Part shown: in pieces, positions 22,632 through 33,999 of the stretch
How the letters are laid out: each line of letters opens with the position of its first letter
Numbering within the stretch: the first letter of the stretch is position 1
Assembly: GCA_007116035.1 (NCBI GenBank)
Contig: SKJG01000026.1
Location: forward strand, 1 to 42,825
Origin: Thioalkalivibrio sp.
GTDB lineage: Bacteria > Pseudomonadota > Gammaproteobacteria > Ectothiorhodospirales > Ectothiorhodospiraceae
DNA: 42,825 nucleotides
Direction of reading: 5' to 3'
Translations under genes and position numbers: made by a program
The notes under the pieces: model-generated
Database searches by the model: none
Seen by the model: only the letters and a program-made list of their open reading frames with translations
What the model was told of the DNA's origin: nothing

Positions 22632-23116
22632 TTCGGGGAGGAAGCCCCTGTCGCAGGCATGTCAGGGAAACGATCGTCAACGCGTCCGTGCCCTGACAAG
22701 GTGGTTACGGATTGGTGTTAGAAGGGCCGGTTAGCCGGTAGTTCCGAAAGGGCCGGAATCAGCCCCGGCTCCGTTCCATCTCGAGTTTAACGTGAAAGTC
22801 ACGGCCATGCCCGCCCCTGCGCGCCCGTTTATGGAGTGCGGGAGCTTGCTCCCGCTATTCGATGTCAGGGAGATCCCGGGCTCCCCAAAGCGGCGGCAAG
22901 CCGCCGCACTCCATAGGCGTTTGTGCTTTCATCCTTCGGGGTGGCGCGCTCCGTGGCCATGAGCGTCAGCCCAGGTAACGCGCAATGGCGGACGGGGCGG
23001 TGCATCGGGTTTCGGGTACCGTTGGCTTCTGGCAGAGTCGAGGCGTCTGCCCGCTGGCTCGGGCGAGGGGTTTTCCAACCCTGACGTGGCTCTTTGCTGA
23101 TTCCGGAGGTCGCTCC
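22632..23116. other. Intergenic region with a type B repeat
   Basis: The divergent region between the transporter operon and the lipase-like gene. It holds the long palindromic repeat at 22804-22919. An open frame starting at 22985 runs into the lipase-like gene, but its first 44 codons are not protein-like. I see no convincing promoter consensus. Confidence 0.5.
22804..22919. repeat. Type B composite palindromic repeat (copy 1)
   Basis: Core at 22830-22915: outer 12-bp arms TATGGAGTGCGG and CCGCACTCCATA enclose two hairpins, GCGGGAGCTTGCTCCCGC and GCGGCGGCAAGCCGCCGC. The left flank at 22804-22826 is also part of the repeat, because it recurs identically, inverted, next to the second copy at 33891-33999. 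By eye, 39 of the first 42 bases match that copy. Confidence 0.8.
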
Positions 23117-24169: not shown

Positions 24170-24641
24170 CGGGGCATTCATGGGGCCGGATGGTGGCCTC
24201 CTGGGTTCATCGCGGCAGGTCCTCCGGTAAACGCTCACGCACTCCGCGATGCAGTGAATCATCGGGACCGATCGATTTCCGGTGAACTGTCACAAAGACA
24301 CCTGATGCAGCGCGGCTCAGGCCGAAGACCGCTTAAAGGTGCAGCGGCACGCAAGGAACAGCGTCGATCGGACGAGGCGATCGTTTATACTGACGCATGT
24401 CCTGGGCGCGTCTCAGCGTTCGGGGCAGTGGATGAAGTACAGTGCTGCCGACCATGAGTTCCTGGTCCGGCCCTGTGGAATCGTGCCGCGAACAGGATGG
24501 CGCGCCACCCTTCGCGTCTGCTCTGCCGGCCGGCTGCGCGAAGGCGCAGGACGGTCCTGCCGGGGCTGAAATGGTCGGCACCGGGGTCGGCTCTTCCGTG
24601 CACGCCATCGGGAGAATGCCCCCTTATCCGTGGAGGAGCCC
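24170..24641. other. Intergenic region, no recognised gene
   Basis: About 470 bases with several short frames in all phases but none with a known motif. A TATACT hexamer at 24386-24391 could be a -10 box on the plus strand, though no good -35 lies upstream. If real, the SH3 gene would have a leader of about 250 nt. Confidence 0.4.
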
Positions 24642-25244
24642 ATGAATACCACGCCCCCAACACGTCAGCGAAAGACGAGGCCCGGTGCCAGGGCCACATC
24701 GCAGCCGGCAAAGACCGAGTTCATCTATCATTGGAATCGCATCTTTGCTGCGCTCGCCTTTGTCCTGCTGCTGATCGGTTTTCTCGGTTTCGCTATCCAT
24801 GCGTGGTTGTCCTCCCCGTCCCGCGACGCGGGGTTCGACGAGGTGGGCGCACCCGTCGGGCACCTCGAGGTGGCTCCTGAGGCGGGTCCGGGCGACGTCC
24901 ACGGGCCCGCTCCGGCAGATCCCGAGGTCGCAGCTGCCTCCGAAACCGTAACACCCCCCGACACGGCTTCGCCCTTCGAAGAGGGCATTCCGGCGCCGCC
25001 AGAAGCGCAGGAAACCACCGCAGAGGACTCGGCGCGCGTCTTTCTGCCACCGGACACGCGGGTCAATCTGCGCGCCGCGCCATCGCTGGACAGCCCGGTG
25101 TTGCGCGTGCTCGAGGCTCCCGTGGAGCTGCAGCTCCTTGAAACCGACGAGGCGTTCCACCAGGTCCGCTCGCCTGAGGGCATCGTCGGCTGGGTCAGTC
25201 GGGATTTTTCATCGCTCACGCCTTATGCCGCGCCTGCGCCGTAA
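24642..25244 (+). CDS. Membrane-anchored bacterial SH3-domain protein
   Basis: A 200-residue protein. A basic cytoplasmic N-terminus (residues 1-30) is followed by one membrane helix (FAALAFVLLLIGFLGFAI), then a Pro/Ala/Glu-rich linker of about 80 residues, then a C-terminal SH3-like domain (DTRVNLRAAPSLDSPVLRVL, then EGIVGWVSRDF). The RVNLRAAPSxxSPVL pattern is the SH3_3 hallmark, often found in cell-wall or periplasmic sensors. The start at 24642 follows GTGGAGGAGCCC, a strong ribosome binding site. The domain probably faces the periplasm and may bind peptidoglycan or a partner protein. No enzymatic domain is present. Confidence 0.75.
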   Translation: MNTTPPTRQRKTRPGARATSQPAKTEFIYHWNRIFAALAFVLLLIGFLGFAIHAWLSSPSRDAGFDEVGAPVGHLEVAPEAGPGDVHGPAPADPEVAAASETVTPPDTASPFEEGIPAPPEAQETTAEDSARVFLPPDTRVNLRAAPSLDSPVLRVLEAPVELQLLETDEAFHQVRSPEGIVGWVSRDFSSLTPYAAPAP

Positions 25245-25567
25245 CCTGCCTGCCCCCGCCCCGAAAACATAAACACCGGGTCGGACCAAGGCAAATTATT
25301 GATTATATGGGATAAAGGTATCGAAGCCGGCGTCTTTCACGGCCTTAAACGCCCCATTTTCGGGCCAAAAACAGCCGAATAAGCCGGGATTCTACCGCGC
25401 CGAACGGATTCCTTCAGGGCGTCTTTCCAGAAACGAGAGCCGACGTTCTACGAGCCAACGCGGTGGTGGGCTCCCGGCTGTTTCCAGACTTTCGTGTGGC
25501 GAAGAGAAGGCGGTTGTCCCGAAGCAGCCGCCGACGCCGAGGACACCTCGCGCACCCCGGACTGCTT
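25245..25567. other. Intergenic region including an AT-rich patch
   Basis: The segment 25270-25320 is distinctly AT-rich (AAATTATTGATTATATGGGA) in an otherwise GC-rich window. It is preceded by ACCGGGTCGGACC, a sequence type common at edges of small mobile remnants. The patch looks foreign or regulatory, but no gene or terminal repeat pair is visible. From 25392 onward minus-strand frames are Arg-rich and not protein-like. Confidence 0.4.
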
Positions 25568-25858
25568 CTACACCGAGCCTGCTCCGGGTAGGGGAGCGAG
25601 GCCCACCTGGCGCAACAGGGCTTCGATCTCGGGACGGCAGGAACCGCAATTTGTGCCCGCCTGGAGGTGCTGGCCGACCGCATCGCAGTTCGTCAGCCCG
25701 AGCTCATCGATGGCGTTGCGGATCCGGTCGTCGCTGACGGCGAAACAGGCGCAGATGGTACGGCTGGGTAGCGAAGCACCGCCAGGCGCGCGTCCGGACA
25801 ACAAGGCGGTTCGTTCCGGTTCCGATAGGGTCCCGTCGCCGAACAGGCCCGCCAGCCA
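25568..25858 (-). pseudogene. C-terminal remnant of assimilatory nitrate reductase (BFD-like [2Fe-2S] domain)
   Basis: A 96-codon minus-strand fragment. It begins WLAGLFGDGTLSEPERTALL, continues through RTICACFAVSDDRIRNAI and ends with AGTNCGSCRPEIEALL. The CxC...CGSC arrangement (four Cys) is a bacterioferritin-associated-ferredoxin-like [2Fe-2S] domain, and the preceding WLAxLF...ERxxLL segment is how this domain is joined to the C-terminus of NasA-type nitrate reductases. The molybdopterin part (about 800 residues) is absent. It is in frame with the nrtA remnant upstream, separated by one stop. It may by chance still be translated from an internal TTG at 25804, but I treat it as a relic. 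Confidence 0.75.
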
Positions 25859-25900
25859 GGCGCGACCGGGCCACCGCCCCGTTCTTCCTGGATGCGCCGA

Positions 25901-26648
25901 TCACGTAGGCCCAACGGCGAGAATTGCCTCCATCGGGTCCGCGGCAAATAACCGCGGGTTTCGGTCGGCGCTTACAGCCGCGGCCGCGCGCCAGATGTCC
26001 TCGCGGTTGACCCGATCGACCAGGGCGCGGCCGTCGAGGTCCCGAGGCAGGTAGCCCCAGCGGATGTCTTCAGTGATGAACCACAGGTCGTGGCTCTTGA
26101 AGGGATAGGCGGCGTGGTGTTCCCAGTAGCGCATCTGGTCGGGGTGATTCTCGACCACGCGTCCGGTGCCGTAGTCGAAATTGCCCTGCATCCGATCGAT
26201 GATGTCTTCGAAAGGGGCGGGGATCCAGCGACGTCGGGAGCAGATGCGCGCGACCTCCTCCTTGTTCTGCGGATCCTCGCAGAACATCTGGGCCTCCATC
26301 ACCGCCATGGTCAGGGCCAGTGCGGCATTGGGGTTCGTATCCACGTAATCGGCGCGCAGGGCGAAGGCCTTCTCGGGATGGTTGTGCCAGAGCTCGCCGG
26401 TGATGTTCGCGGTATAGCCGATGCCCTGGTTGATCAGCTGCATGTTCCAGGGCTGGCAGACACAGAAGGTATCCATGCTGCCCACCCTCATGTTCGCGAC
26501 CATCTGCGCCGGGGGGACGGTGATGGTGGCGATGTCGCGGTTGGGGTCGATTCCGGCCGCCGCCCAGCATGGCGGCACCGGCGGTAGCGGCCAATCCGCC
26601 CAGGAAGCGGCGGCGCGAAATACCGTTCTGACGATTGTTCTTGCTCAT
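25901..26648 (-). pseudogene. nrtA: Nitrate ABC transporter binding protein NrtA, internally deleted
   Basis: The start at 26648 encodes MSKNNRQNGISRRRFLGGLA, a Tat signal peptide. Within about 30 codons the frame shifts at a GGC-rich site, and the sequence resumes in another frame deep inside NrtA: AAGIDPNRDIATITVPPAQM, then FCVCQPWNMQLINQGIGY, then HDLWFITEDIRWGYLPRDLD. Full NrtA proteins are about 430-450 residues; the first ~170 mature residues are missing. The C-terminus diverges after REDIWRAAAAV and ends at a stop at 25901, so the normal tail is also lost. The protein cannot work. An intrinsic terminator lies 36 nt upstream of the start. Confidence 0.85.
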
Positions 26649-26683
26649 GATCGGTTCTCCGGACCAATGGATCGTGAAGGCAC

Positions 26684-26736
26684 AAAAAAAAGGCGTCTCA
26701 CCTCCTAACGCCGCGATGCGACGAGGGGTGGACGCC
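26684..26736 (-). terminator. Strong intrinsic terminator in the nrtA leader
   Basis: On the minus strand GGCGTCCACC pairs with the matching arm ending GACGCC (single-base bulge), followed at once by eight T residues (26691-26684). It sits 36 nt before the nrtA start codon. In Klebsiella-type nas operons such a leader terminator is overridden by the nitrate sensor NasR, and the NIT-domain remnant next door fits this. Confidence 0.8.
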
Positions 26737-26738
26737 CC

Positions 26739-27115
26739 GATGGCCTGTTCGGAAATCGCCGCGCGAAGTAACGGCAGACGTGACAGTCCGTCGAGCACCA
26801 GGGCAATGGCACCCAGCAGGCGGCTGCATTGCGGGGCGCGGCTCTCCGGGGTCAGCCACTGGGCCAGATGGATGTGCAGGACCCCCTCGGCCTGATCCGC
26901 ATCGGCGCGATAGCGCTGCAACGGCTCGGCGTAGCGTTGCCCCTGGGAACCGACGAACAGATTGAAAGCGCTCCGCTCACGTTGCAGGTCATGGATCAGC
27001 GCGCGTACGACGCCGCCCAGCTTTACCGCCCGGCCGAGGTGTTCCAGGCCGCCACTTCGCACTGGCGGGCCGCGACCAGCGCAGCCAGCATATTCGACCG
27101 ATTTTGTTCCGCCAT
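26739..27115 (-). pseudogene. NasR-like nitrate-sensing (NIT domain) regulator remnant
   Basis: From an ATG at 27115 the minus strand reads MAEQNRSNMLAALVAARQCE and then hits a stop; a one-base shift at about 27040-27055 continues as GLEHLGRAVKLGGVVRALIH, then DLQRERSAFNLFVGSQGQRY, then a helical segment. LIHDLQRERxxxNLFVGSxG is the start of a NIT domain, the all-helical nitrate/nitrite sensor of NasR antiterminators. The frame decays before the rest of the sensor, and the RNA-binding ANTAR domain is absent. It ends at the leader terminator. Frameshift plus truncation make it non-functional. Confidence 0.7.
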
Positions 27116-27294
27116 TTGCCTGACCTGTGCACGCTGTCCCCATCGGGGGAGTCTCGCGGTGCGACAGGCATTTGGCGTGCCAACCGTTCAACGCCAACCT
27201 CCCGCCGGCGCCGGGCAGCCGGCCATGCGTTCAGGTGGCGAGTCCCTTGCGTCTTCGCGATACCAAATCGATCGGGTATTCGAACCGCGGCTCC

Positions 27295-27329
27295 GCGCGG
27301 GCCGCGATACGACGCACCGCGGCCCGCGC
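27295..27329. repeat. Perfect 12-bp inverted repeat downstream of the DsrE gene
   Basis: GCGCGGGCCGCG and CGCGGCCCGCGC form a perfect stem with an 11-nt loop, starting 39 nt after the stop of the DsrE-family gene on the minus strand. No T tract follows, so it may stabilise the transcript end or be a Rho-assisted end point. Confidence 0.55.
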
Positions 27330-27367
27330 ATCCCGGACCGGCCCTGCAAGGCTCTTCCTTCAGCGGC

Positions 27368-27742
27368 TCAGAAGATCATGATCTGATAGCCATCGGCGGC
27401 GAGGGCGCGCAGGCTGGGCAGGCCCGCCGTTCCGGGGGCTGCGTTGTCCTTCAGCATGGTGAAGCCGGCCTGCTCGGCGCCGCCGGCCGCACCGAAGAAA
27501 TCCGAGCACGTTGCCGAGACCCCGGCCACCTTGTCCTCGACCGACTGGTAGAGCGCGTTGAGCGGATGGTCCTCCCTGGCGATCTGAGCAGCCCAGCGCG
27601 TCCCCGCGCCGAGAAACACCAGGGCCACCTCGTCGCCGTGATTCTTGAAGTCGTAGGCCACACCGAGGGCGTTGAACACCCGTCCCAGGGCTTCGTCGTT
27701 GTTGGCTTCAGGGTCGGACATCACCACGATGGCTGCTTTCAT
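27368..27742 (-). CDS. DsrE/DsrF-like family protein
   Basis: A 124-residue cytoplasmic protein starting MKAAIVVMSDPEANNDEALG and containing DEVALVFLGAGTRWAAQIAR, which match the DsrE/DsrF/YchN fold. One Cys (SATCSDFFGA) is in the position of the conserved sulfur-carrier Cys of many family members, so sulfur relay is possible, but the family is diverse. The start at 27742 follows CCGGAGGTTCCGAAC. An intrinsic terminator lies about 43 nt upstream of the start, the same layout as at nrtA. It is oriented like the nitrate remnant beside it and like katG. Confidence 0.8.
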   Translation of the reverse strand: MKAAIVVMSDPEANNDEALGRVFNALGVAYDFKNHGDEVALVFLGAGTRWAAQIAREDHPLNALYQSVEDKVAGVSATCSDFFGAAGGAEQAGFTMLKDNAAPGTAGLPSLRALAADGYQIMIF

Positions 27743-27784
27743 GTTCGGAACCTCCGGTAGGGGGGGTAGGTAGGGTGTCTATGC

Positions 27785-27817
27785 AAAAAAAACGCTTGAG
27801 GGGGGCCTCAAATGGCG
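27785..27817 (-). terminator. Intrinsic terminator just upstream of the DsrE gene
   Basis: On the minus strand TTGAGG and CCTCAA pair across a CCCC loop, extended by CGC/GCG with a three-base bulge, and are followed by TTTTTTTT (27792-27785). It lies about 250 nt beyond the katG stop and 43 nt before the DsrE start. It could end the katG transcript or attenuate the DsrE gene. Confidence 0.7.
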
Positions 27818-27998
27818 TCGCTCGAGTATAGGCCGCATCCAACGCCTCTTTCTTCGACAGCCGCTTGCCTTGCCTTCATCGGCGCCGGAGACCACGCGTT
27901 GATCTCATGTGCGCCGTGCCTTCGAGTCGGGTCGTCGGCGTGCGGGTTTGGGGTGCGATGTCGCGTTGCTGGAAGGCGATCGCTTGGGAATGACCAAC

Positions 27999-28020
27999 GG
28001 CGGCACATCCCTGTGCCGCC
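27999..28020. repeat. Hairpin shortly after the katG stop
   Basis: GGCGGCACA and TGTGCCGCC form a perfect 9-bp stem with a 4-nt loop, 44 nt downstream of the katG stop on the minus strand. No T tract follows, so it may protect the katG 3' end or act with Rho. Confidence 0.5.
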
Positions 28021-28063
28021 CGAGGAGGTCGATCCATCGACGCTTCTCGGGAGAAGTCGGCGA

Positions 28064-30313
<2,250 letters not shown>

Positions 30314-30538
30314 TCAACCGGTCGGCACGATGCCAGGAAGGCCTGCATTTGTGGGCGGTTGACCCCGCCGCGGTTGCTACTTTCCGCTTACCCCAAGTCT
30401 ACGCCGTTCATTTTTATCGTGAACCCCAAATCCGATTCAATCTTCCTCTCGTCGAAATAGCCATTCTTAATGACTGCAATCGAGTCCGTCGGCGTGCTTT
30501 CCCTCGTGCCGCCTCCGTTGCGTCGCCACGGCGTCATT

Positions 30539-31834
30539 TCACCCCCGCTTGCGAAAATGTCCCCGTCCGGATCTGCGCGGGTACCTGGGGCTTGGCGGAC
30601 CGGCCTGCGCCACGGTGGCCTCTATGTCGTGCGCCCAGGCCACCGCTTCGAGGTAGATCTGGCCCGTGCGCTCGTCGTCCAGTCCCCGAAATTGGCGGGT
30701 TTCGCTGGCGCTGTCGAATTCGAAGGCAATGGCACAGGTCAGGGCATCCCCCATCGGACCTTCGCGTTGCAACAACGCGGCATTGACGTCTTCGGTGAGG
30801 GGCAGTTCCTGCAGCAGTTCGTCCATCGGCAGATGCAGCATTTTCTCGAGAATGGAGAAGATGCCCACCGTAAAGAAGCTGTCCGAGTGCGCCAGTCGGC
30901 ACTCCTCCGCCAGCCGTTGGGCCATGCGTCCACGGACCAGCGCGGTCACCAGCAAATCGCTGTGTTGGTCGTCCATGGCACGTAACGCCATGATCGTGAT
31001 CCAGTTGCGAATGGCGTTCTGGCCAAGGTAGACGACCGCGCGACGAATGGACTCGACGGGTCGGGACAGACCGTAGAACGCGGAATTGATGAAGCGCAGC
31101 AGGTGGTAACTGAGCGAGACATCCCTGGAGATATGCGCTTCCAGTTCGCGCAGATCCACGTTGGCGCGATACAGTTTGTTGACGAGTTCAATCACTGCCA
31201 GTCGGCTCGTCGGCAGCCGCTGACCCTGAACCACCACGGGCCGGCTCAGGTAGTAACCCTGGAAGTACTCGAAGCCAAGGCCGAGACAGGACAGGTACTG
31301 TTCCTGCGTCTCCACCTTTTCCGCGAGCAGCTGCACGTCGTACTGGCGGAGTTCGCGCACGTGCTCGTGCAGCTCCACCTGGGTGAGCCGGGTCAGGTCG
31401 ATTTTCACGATCTTGGCCAGATGGAGCAGCGGCGCATGGCTTCGATCGTAGACGTAGTCATCCAGCGCGACGCTGTACCCGCTCTCCGTCAGGGCGCGTA
31501 CTCCGGCAATCACCTCGTCATCGATCTCGATGTCCTCGAGGACCTCCAGCACGACCCGGTCCTTGGGAAAGACGAAGGCGCTGCCATTGGTCAGGAACGA
31601 GCGCGTGAGATTCACAAAGGCCGTCTTGTTGCCGACCAGGCGCTGTAACCCGATATCCATCAGGCTGCTGTGGATCACCTCAGAGGTTGCGGCGTCGCCA
31701 TCGACGAACACCGCCTGTCCCTCATCCTTGGCACGGAACAGGAGTTCGAAGGCTTGCGTCCGCATGTCGCGGTCGTAAATGGGCTGACGCCCGATGAAGA
31801 CTTCTTCCACGTGTCTGCTCTTGCGGGTACCCAC
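30539..31834 (-). CDS. EAL-HDOD signal-transduction protein (YuxH/CdgJ-like)
   Basis: A 431-residue protein. The N-terminal ~200 residues are an EAL-like domain of the catalytically degenerate YuxH type: VFIGRQPIYDRDMRTQAFEL begins it, but the EAL motif is ELLFRA and the DDFG-like loop is VALDDYVYD. The second half is an HDOD domain (LRELEAHISRDVSLSYHLLR, then FINSAFYGLSRPVESIRRAV). Proteins of this build in other proteobacteria affect motility and surface behaviour without phosphodiesterase activity. The start is GTG at 31834, with no clear ribosome binding site; later in-frame GTG/ATG codons are possible. The C-terminal ~25 residues are basic and Pro-rich. Confidence 0.88.
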   Translation of the reverse strand: MGTRKSRHVEEVFIGRQPIYDRDMRTQAFELLFRAKDEGQAVFVDGDAATSEVIHSSLMDIGLQRLVGNKTAFVNLTRSFLTNGSAFVFPKDRVVLEVLEDIEIDDEVIAGVRALTESGYSVALDDYVYDRSHAPLLHLAKIVKIDLTRLTQVELHEHVRELRQYDVQLLAEKVETQEQYLSCLGLGFEYFQGYYLSRPVVVQGQRLPTSRLAVIELVNKLYRANVDLRELEAHISRDVSLSYHLLRFINSAFYGLSRPVESIRRAVVYLGQNAIRNWITIMALRAMDDQHSDLLVTALVRGRMAQRLAEECRLAHSDSFFTVGIFSILEKMLHLPMDELLQELPLTEDVNAALLQREGPMGDALTCAIAFEFDSASETRQFRGLDDERTGQIYLEAVAWAHDIEATVAQAGPPSPRYPRRSGRGHFRKRG

Positions 31835-32153
31835 GATGCATGGTGGCGATCACCACAATATTAACAGGTGCTCATGGCAGGGGACTCATTTTCGACCCTT
31901 CCGGCGCCGGTCGCTGCACGAACCTCGAGGCGCGAATCTTACGTACTCATCCGCCGGGTCGTTGACCGGCGAAAGACCGTCGTCCGCTGTCGGCATTGAC
32001 CGCCATCGGGATGTCGTTGGGGCCGGGGAGTCTGTGCGATCCCCGGTGCCGGGGGACGGCAGACGGCTGCCTCCGGCCTCTCCCGCTCTACGCGCAGTCG
32101 TGCGGTCGTTTATCGTTACAGAGCCGCAGGAACTCTCAGCCCAAGGAAACGGT
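31835..32153. other. Divergent intergenic region
   Basis: About 320 bases between the EAL-HDOD gene and the HIT gene. Open frames run through it, but they have no family motif and no ribosome binding site. I see nothing I can name. Confidence 0.4.
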
Positions 32154-32600
32154 ATGGCAACCAACGAAATCACCGAAGAATTCCGGCTCGATGCACGCCT
32201 GGCGCAGGATACCGTGCACGTCACCGAGTTTCCGTGCTGTCGCCTGCTGTTGATACGCAATGCGGATTACCCTTGGTTCATCCTGGTGCCCCGCCTTGCC
32301 GGGGTCACGGAGCTGCACCATCTCTCGGCCCCGGACCTCGCTCGATTGATGGAGGAGTCCCGGGTCCTCGCGACGGCCATGGAAGCGGCCTTTGCACCCC
32401 GGGCCCTCAACGTGGCCAAGCTCGGCAACGTCGTGCCGCAGCTGCATCTGCACCACGTTGCGCGTGTCCCGGGAGATGCCGCGTGGCCGGGCCCGGTCTG
32501 GGGTCGGCCCGCGGGCGCTCTGCATGATCACGCGAGTGCCAAGGCGATGATCGCGCGGTTATTGGGTCACATGGCCGCGGGTCCTGAAACGGCGGAGTAG
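32154..32600 (+). CDS. HIT-domain nucleotide hydrolase/transferase family protein
   Basis: A 148-residue histidine-triad protein. The triad motif reads VVPQLHLHHVARV, so the first His of HxHxHxx is Gln, as is common in one proteobacterial HIT branch; the catalytic middle His remains. FILVPRLAGVTELHHLSAPD and DAAWPGPVWG are typical of this group. HIT enzymes cleave nucleotide phosphoesters such as diadenosine polyphosphates or adenylated amines; the substrate here is unknown. The start ATG at 32154 follows CCAAGGAAACGGT. The frame is open upstream to 31794, but that part is not homologous. Confidence 0.88.
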   Translation: MATNEITEEFRLDARLAQDTVHVTEFPCCRLLLIRNADYPWFILVPRLAGVTELHHLSAPDLARLMEESRVLATAMEAAFAPRALNVAKLGNVVPQLHLHHVARVPGDAAWPGPVWGRPAGALHDHASAKAMIARLLGHMAAGPETAE

Positions 32601-32726
32601 AAACGTCATCCTGTCCGGCGAGTCTCTTTGCAGGATCCCTGTCGCGCTTGCGCCTACCTGATCATCACGGAAGCTCCGCAGGCCGTGTTGCCGAGCGCGA
32701 TGTACTCTCCGCGTTGGCCGGCCCCC

Positions 32727-32793: not shown

Positions 32794-32802
32794 TCGACGC
32801 CG

Positions 32803-32840
32803 GGGATAAACCAACTCCCCACAGCGGCGGCAAGCCGACG
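32803..32840. repeat. Partial type B repeat
   Basis: About 38 bases that include CTCCCCACAGCGGCGGCAAG; about 33 of them match by eye the reverse complement of the left half of the copy at 33891-33999. The other half is missing. It directly follows the type A copy. Confidence 0.65.
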
Positions 32841-32926
32841 AACTCGACAGAGGTTCTTAGTTTCATCGTCAGCGGTGCCGCGGGTCCGCGGACACGAGAG
32901 GGAGGATGGCCGGCAAAAGGGCGCAT

Positions 32927-33822: not shown

Positions 33823-33890
33823 AGGGTTCCCCTGAAACAGCGGCAATCCGACCGCCTGCGTAGCTTTGGTGCTGATCAAGAGCGCCTGTG

Positions 33891-33999
33891 GCGTGCGGCA
33901 GCTTGCCGCCGCTATGGGGAGCTGGGTTATCCCAGGCCCCCCGAATAGCGGGAACAAGCTCCCGCATTCCATAAGTGGGCGCGCAGGGGCGGGCATGGC
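33891..33999. repeat. Type B palindromic repeat (copy 2, inverted)
   Basis: The reverse complement of this segment matches 22804-22919, including the shared flank outside the palindrome. Inner hairpins are GCGGCAGCTTGCCGCCGC and GCGGGAACAAGCTCCCGC. It ends just before the stop codon of the maf gene. Confidence 0.8.

Follow-up and report, generated by a model that had tools for sequence, protein, structure and literature searches.

The minus strand of the window (the whole 42,825-nucleotide stretch analysed, from a draft genome of Thioalkalivibrio sp., a soda-lake sulfur bacterium) carries, between 27115 and 25568, a collapsed nitrate-assimilation operon, best explained as an ordinary pseudogene remnant; remnants of this kind are common, and the history of this one is unusually easy to read. 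We put at about 0.88 the probability that the locus is what remains, without function, of a nasR-nrtABC-nirBD-nasA operon after a loss of 7.2 kb, probably element-seeded, and two smaller deletions. Frame translation and alignment to relatives identified five surviving pieces, namely the start of nasR, a leader terminator hairpin, the nrtA signal, the nrtA C-terminal part and the nasA [2Fe-2S] tail (Table 1). Order and strand of these fragments are as expected from the intact homologues that they match. The host genome is a 3.03-Mb draft of 186 contigs with a completeness of 99.67% and a contamination of 2.15%.

Table 1. Features of the remnant-bearing segment, in window coordinates
Feature	Position	Strand	Description
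nasR remnant	26733..27115	-	start of nitrate-sensing regulator; NIT profile positions 1-86 of 239; frameshift near 27040
nrtA leader, kept end	26680..26741	-	strong hairpin followed by T run (terminator); from fold and alignment
nrtA 5' end	26560..26648	-	signal sequence, then 0.5-kb deletion junction near 26563
nrtA C-terminal part	25977..26560	-	other frame, 194-196 codons, stop-free
Palindromic interspersed repeat	25888..25976	-	TGTAAGCGCCGA...TCGGCGCA; likeness to another copy reaches 25853
nasA C-terminal tail	25568..25870	-	BFD-like [2Fe-2S] domain, five conserved cysteines
Second interspersed repeat family	25272..25411		GGGTCGGACCAAGGCAA ...; just downstream of nasA tail
Whole remnant-bearing segment	25254..27342		absent from nearest relative G018

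Surviving fragments and the intact operon of relatives

The nrtA fragment begins at 26648 with the signal MSKNNRQNGISRRRFLGGLAATAGAAMLGG, whose motif suggests a Tat type. As described in the earlier note on this DNA, minus-frame translation places a frame jump near 26563, after which the remaining NrtA stays open down to a single stop at 25903-25901; the same frame then continues into a BFD-type [2Fe-2S] tail that ends at the stop 25570-25568. Both the NrtA part (Pfam NMT1_2, E = 5.9e-44, profile positions 145-251 of 252) and the tail (Pfam Fer2_BFD, E = 2.1e-17) match far beyond chance. In tblastn searches the NrtA C-terminal part was 86% identical to NrtA of the relative G012 (E = 5.2e-121) and 80-86% identical across relatives, and the nasA tail was 58% identical to nasA of the relative G027 (E = 1.9e-31). 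The tail has kept its five cysteines, which are invariant across the 12 relatives compared; it is all that is left of the NasA domain set, and the list of open reading frames holds none of at least 80 aa from ATG, GTG or TTG in its frame. A complete one-frame NrtA with signal is absent from the remnant, as signal and C-terminal part lie in different frames. NrtA of G012 matches the NrtA structure 2g29 ('Nitrate transport protein nrtA') over residues 38-434 (E = 2.4e-172); compared with a NrtA of this type, the window copy lacks about G012 residues 31-195, presumably most of the first lobe. The earlier note was right about the NrtA remainder, whereas the divergence that it saw at the C terminus is an interspersed repeat (25888-25976). 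Its account of the content of 25568-26648 likewise stands, but the remnant extends further upstream, to a nasR fragment and the leader terminator.

The nasR fragment matches Pfam NIT (E = 6.7e-10) and is 60% identical to nasR of G012 (tblastn, E = 6.9e-33). Its nucleotide alignment pairs 336 with 337 bases and hence contains an early frameshift; the first ~24 residues sit in another frame, the start codon and the frame switch having been placed by eye. The remainder of the NIT domain and the ANTAR domain are gone. Between nasR and nrtA, the leader sequence 26672-26745 folds with -36.6 kcal/mol (z = -4.05), and the matching hairpin in the G012 leader gave -36.0 kcal/mol (z = -4.47). With Rfam, the window gave no match at gathering scores, and 25200-27400 gave none even when E up to 1 was allowed; the leader and the repeat thus match no curated RNA family. 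In Klebsiella, NasR relieves such a leader terminator and carries an ANTAR domain. As this part of NasR has been lost here, we infer that any remaining transcript should stop at the leader terminator.

The intact order in the relative G022 (locus L033) is nasR-nrtA-nrtB-nrtC-nirB-nirD-nasA-cysG. Its nasR encodes NIT and ANTAR domains (Pfam), its nrtB and nrtC score above the TIGR01183 and TIGR01184 cut-offs, respectively, nirB and nirD were recognised by eye in the translated frames, and its NasA has all four domains (Fe4S4, molybdopterin, dinucleotide-binding and BFD). The earlier note had placed nrtBCD and nirBD between nrtA and nasA; nrtB, nirB and nirD are indeed there, whereas nrtC is a single gene in L033. 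The surviving pieces share gene order and strand with this Thioalkalivibrio operon, the nrtA part shows 81-86% identity in comparisons with 13 copies from the genus, and the terminator hairpin before nrtA in the G012 operon is also present in the remnant. In contrast to the intact operon, the remnant lacks nrtB, nrtC, nirB, nirD, most of nasA and nasR, and the middle of nrtA. A search of 57 other genomes gave 15 relatives with NrtA of at least 80% identity. In all 15 the NrtA frame is open over 437-499 aa and in none is the short architecture found, in agreement with the earlier reading of a broken gene.

Full-length NasA of at least 65% identity is present in 10 of the 22 other same-genus genomes, and 5 of the 12 without it are less than 90% complete. 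Two genomes, G010 (C1:2493504-2494091) and G013 (C14:10490-11080), have a NrtA relative only 39-40% identical to the remnant NrtA. Their NasA proteins are of the genus type (65% and 88% identical to NasA of G022, respectively) and lie ~5 kb from the divergent NrtA relative, and nasR of G010 is 60% identical to the remnant nasR fragment. In these two genomes the operon may have had its NrtA binding protein replaced by another.

Three junctions and a palindromic repeat

Three junctions can be told apart, with losses of about 1.3, 0.5 and 7.2 kb, ~9 kb in all; the earlier note had called for at least two deletions and several kilobases. At the nasR-leader junction, the match of nasR to G012 breaks off at about L022:11302 and that of the leader starts at L022:12616, a loss of ~1.3 kb. 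Within nrtA, window position 26563 joins L022:12790 to 13287, with a loss of 496 bp or about 165 residues relative to the intact G012 gene (~170 had been estimated). At the third junction, nrtA at 25977 is joined to the nasA tail at about 25868. Synteny with relatives that keep the operon, proposed earlier as a check, bears this out: the interval from the nrtA end to the nasA tail spans 7116-7272 bp in 14 of the 14 relatives measured (13 in single loci and G012 over two, L024 of G055 being omitted for its weak tail match) versus about 0.1 kb here.

The third junction is occupied by the palindromic repeat, which adds the in-frame stop after the NrtA part. Other copies in the same genome lie on contigs C5 (94% identity over 107 bases), C60 (86%) and C23 (100% over 47 bp), and all four copies have one sharp end in common, TGTAAGCGCCGACC, which in the window abuts nrtA at 25976. 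In two pattern searches, related ends were found besides the host genome in G010, G012 and G014 only (4 of 40 and 4 of 36 genomes), and a reversed control pattern gave zero matches in the 36-genome search. The window copy folds into an outer stem with two inner hairpins at -40.5 kcal/mol versus a shuffled mean of -29.7 (z = -3.2). In this copy the outer stem leaves the first five bases free and is interrupted by a bulge after seven pairs; the inverted ends of the G012 copy L191 pair over their outermost twelve bases. Agreement between the C5 copy and the window reaches 25853. The last 14 bases of this match, CAGCCAGGCGCGAC, are also similar to nasA of relatives, and past this position the C5 and C60 copies remain alike. 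That the C5 likeness ends in a nasA-like stretch fits a deletion running from the element into nasA at a short similarity.

We also considered 25860-25985 as a leftover of nrtB, nrtC, nirB or nasA, for which the best nucleotide matches had E of 0.03 or worse; the stretch is the own-genome repeat. An insertion-sequence end was likewise rejected, as no transposase was recognised by eye in the long open reading frames around seven copies from other genomes and three from the host genome. No target duplication was seen by eye in the aligned repeat ends.

We call the repeat MITE-like, a label of our own. Like MITEs and Rickettsia palindromic elements in the excerpted accounts of them (PMC10969869, PMC3733652), it is short and palindromic with no transposase recognised by eye near the fetched copies, and three of the copies here end reading frames by adding a stop; as a difference from the elements in those excerpts, only four copies were found in the host genome and the family was identified with no named one. 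GTAG-type REP repeats of 20-40 bp occur in Thioalkalivibrio sp. K90mix and HL-EbGr7 according to an excerpt of PMC3733652. These, too, are interspersed palindromic repeats of the genus, some inside genes as here, whereas the present repeat, compared with that excerpt by description, measures about 89 bp and has two inner hairpins. Elsewhere in the host genome, a HipA-like open reading frame (recognised by eye; L175:4621-5316, contig C60) and an unknown small one (L174:3728-4249, contig C5) each terminate in frame within the element, suggesting that it truncates other genes too. A broader role is doubtful, namely that a palindromic family of one Thioalkalivibrio branch inserts in genes, adds an in-frame stop (VSADRNPRLFAADP...), seeds kilobase deletions and drives the loss of accessory pathways. 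If true, soda-lake bacteria would owe the loss of such pathways, nitrate assimilation among them, to an element family.

The 7.2-kb deletion was probably seeded by the MITE-like element. A small palindromic element of this kind would have inserted in the 3' part of nrtA, and a deletion from inside it to a short similar stretch of nasA would then have removed ~7.2 kb. The unselected segment would also have suffered the ~1.3-kb loss from nasR into the leader, the ~0.5-kb loss inside nrtA and the nasR frameshift. The NrtA product would be ~165 residues short, has no permease or ATPase gene next to it and would lie behind a terminator that has lost its working regulator; nitrate assimilation by this route is therefore not expected in the strain.

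Search for other copies in the genome and signs of relaxed selection

Searches of the host genome with NrtA and NasA, proposed in the earlier note, returned only the remnant for NrtA: there is no second copy in this 99.67%-complete draft, and the one extra match is its own signal part. NasA gave seven matches; among the four listed, one is the tail (53%) and the three others are 25-32% identical over parts, the best of these listed others covering residues 14-378 of a 1013-aa frame at 30%. For NirB, nine matches to TIGR02374 were obtained with none over the cut-off (best 141 bits versus 578), and matches to NrtB reached 26% and 22% identity at best. Since no other orthologue of NrtA, NrtB, NirB or NasA was found in the draft, the loss of the NrtABC-NirBD-NasA route, already proposed in the earlier note, is well supported as a prediction from the genome sequence.

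For nrtA, 194 codons could be compared, and changes were counted at sites that do not vary among 15 relatives. The window copy has 11 changes of its own, distributed 7/3/1 over codon positions 1/2/3 (neutral expectation 4.5/4.8/1.8, p = 0.29), and 9 of the 11 are nonsynonymous; the 15 relatives, treated alike and summed, have 12/5/30, with 18 of 47 nonsynonymous. Fisher tests of the window against the relatives, which treat the relatives as independent although they are not, gave p = 0.0016 for positions 1 and 2 versus 3 and p = 0.016 for nonsynonymous versus synonymous changes. In one relative (L027), 10 of 16 private changes are also nonsynonymous. This pattern, which comprises 11 changes, supports a putative release of the nrtA fragment from selection. 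Pairwise, the nrtA part shows dN of 0.07-0.12 and dS of 0.46-0.90 against relatives, as expected of a gene with a long history of selection; most of the divergence is therefore older than the collapse. The nasA tail is too diverged to be read in this way, as the window differs from 12 relatives at 21/20/20 of 79/83/47 invariant sites. With nrtA 86% identical and stop-free over 194 codons and five cysteines kept in the nasA tail, either the collapse is recent or some constraint lingers; the operon may thus have been lost recently.

Genomic setting and rival explanations

The nearest relative, G018 (as judged by a neighbouring hydrolase of 87% identity), has 44 bp between the flanks compared with 2.09 kb here. 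In blastn the flanks match its locus L151 over 24261-25253 and 27343-27866, around SH3 and DsrE genes, and no NrtA match was found in G018. G018 may have lost all of it, or else the operon was gained by the window genome and decayed there. The second repeat family, situated between the nasA tail and the SH3 gene, occurs at four other places in the host genome, and similar stretches are found in four fetched loci at 62-71% identity. Stretches fetched from 15 genomes around their intact operons contained no match to the flanking proteins. The idea that the flanks mark an ancestral operon site found no support: in G008, G010, G012, G015 and G017 the hydrolase gene is near the genes of window 33-38 kb. 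The G003 contig ends at the hydrolase gene region, and the DsrE gene of G014 lies on a 3.6-kb contig without nas pieces.

A misjoin of an intact nrtA and nasA during assembly would mimic a collapse, and the draft does consist of 186 contigs with a repeat, a usual cause of misjoins, at the main junction; we nevertheless regard such an artefact as very improbable, because searches with NrtA, NasA, NirB and NrtB found no intact pieces elsewhere in the 99.67%-complete assembly, the nasR frameshift is independent of the junction, and the nucleotide changes in nrtA look unselected. The same changes, mostly nonsynonymous, speak against a functional mini-locus in which a short NrtA-like protein or the [2Fe-2S] tail has taken a new role. 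Frames of about 219 and 110 codons are still open and the five conserved cysteines persist, as such a role would have it, but the NrtA signal and remainder are in different frames, the nasA tail has no open reading frame of at least 80 aa with an ATG, GTG or TTG start, none of the 15 relatives with NrtA of at least 80% identity has the short form, and the segment is absent in G018. We consider this alternative very unlikely.

The remaining alternatives concern how the remnant arose. That the operon never worked in this lineage, an already broken fragment having been acquired by transfer, would account for the lack of matches to the flanking genes next to intact operons in the 15 genomes fetched and for the missing segment in G018. 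Acquisition of a whole operon followed by its loss would explain these facts too, and the own-genome element family at the junction points to a break in this genome or a close relative; we regard transfer of a broken fragment as improbable. Recombination between two element copies, one in nrtA and one in nasA, could have produced the 7.2-kb deletion in place of a deletion out of a single copy. One copy does sit at the junction, and MITEs are called hotspots for homologous recombination in the excerpted text of PMC10969869. On the nasA side, however, the C5 likeness stops inside the longer repeat common to C5 and C60, in a nasA-like stretch, which fits a truncated single copy better; the two-copy route is a possible one that we consider somewhat unlikely.

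A decayed operon, our preferred reading, would represent an intermediate between retention and full loss of nitrate assimilation within one genus, with full NasA, scraps and an empty site (G018) side by side, and the specific repeat at the largest break makes the route of loss checkable in related strains. Reports on named strains, each seen in excerpt, describe the use of ammonia, nitrate and nitrite as nitrogen source by K90mix (PMC3368412), the inability of T. thiocyanodenitrificans to assimilate nitrite (PMC4624374), and nitrate reduction for assimilation by some T. thiocyanoxidans strains, with T. paradoxus unable to use NOx in assimilation (PMC5328954). This physiology is informative at the genus level only, apart from the genomes compared, and an intact operon alone is no proof of nitrate use. 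No description of this remnant was found in the titles and abstract beginnings of the literature searched.

The surroundings vary as well. A katG segment (katG at 28064-30277 within 27867-30570) directly next to the nas remnant is missing from G018 at this place, where its flanks lie one base apart. Most of 24261-32656 (SH3, nas remnant, DsrE, katG and EAL-HDOD) looks like a variable island of the window genome and G018. G008 and G010 have a piece similar to window 32.2-32.6 kb on the opposite side of the hydrolase gene. A further interspersed repeat occupies 22804-22963, 32799-32898 and 33878-33999, with 75-85% identity and in both orientations, and is also present in G018.
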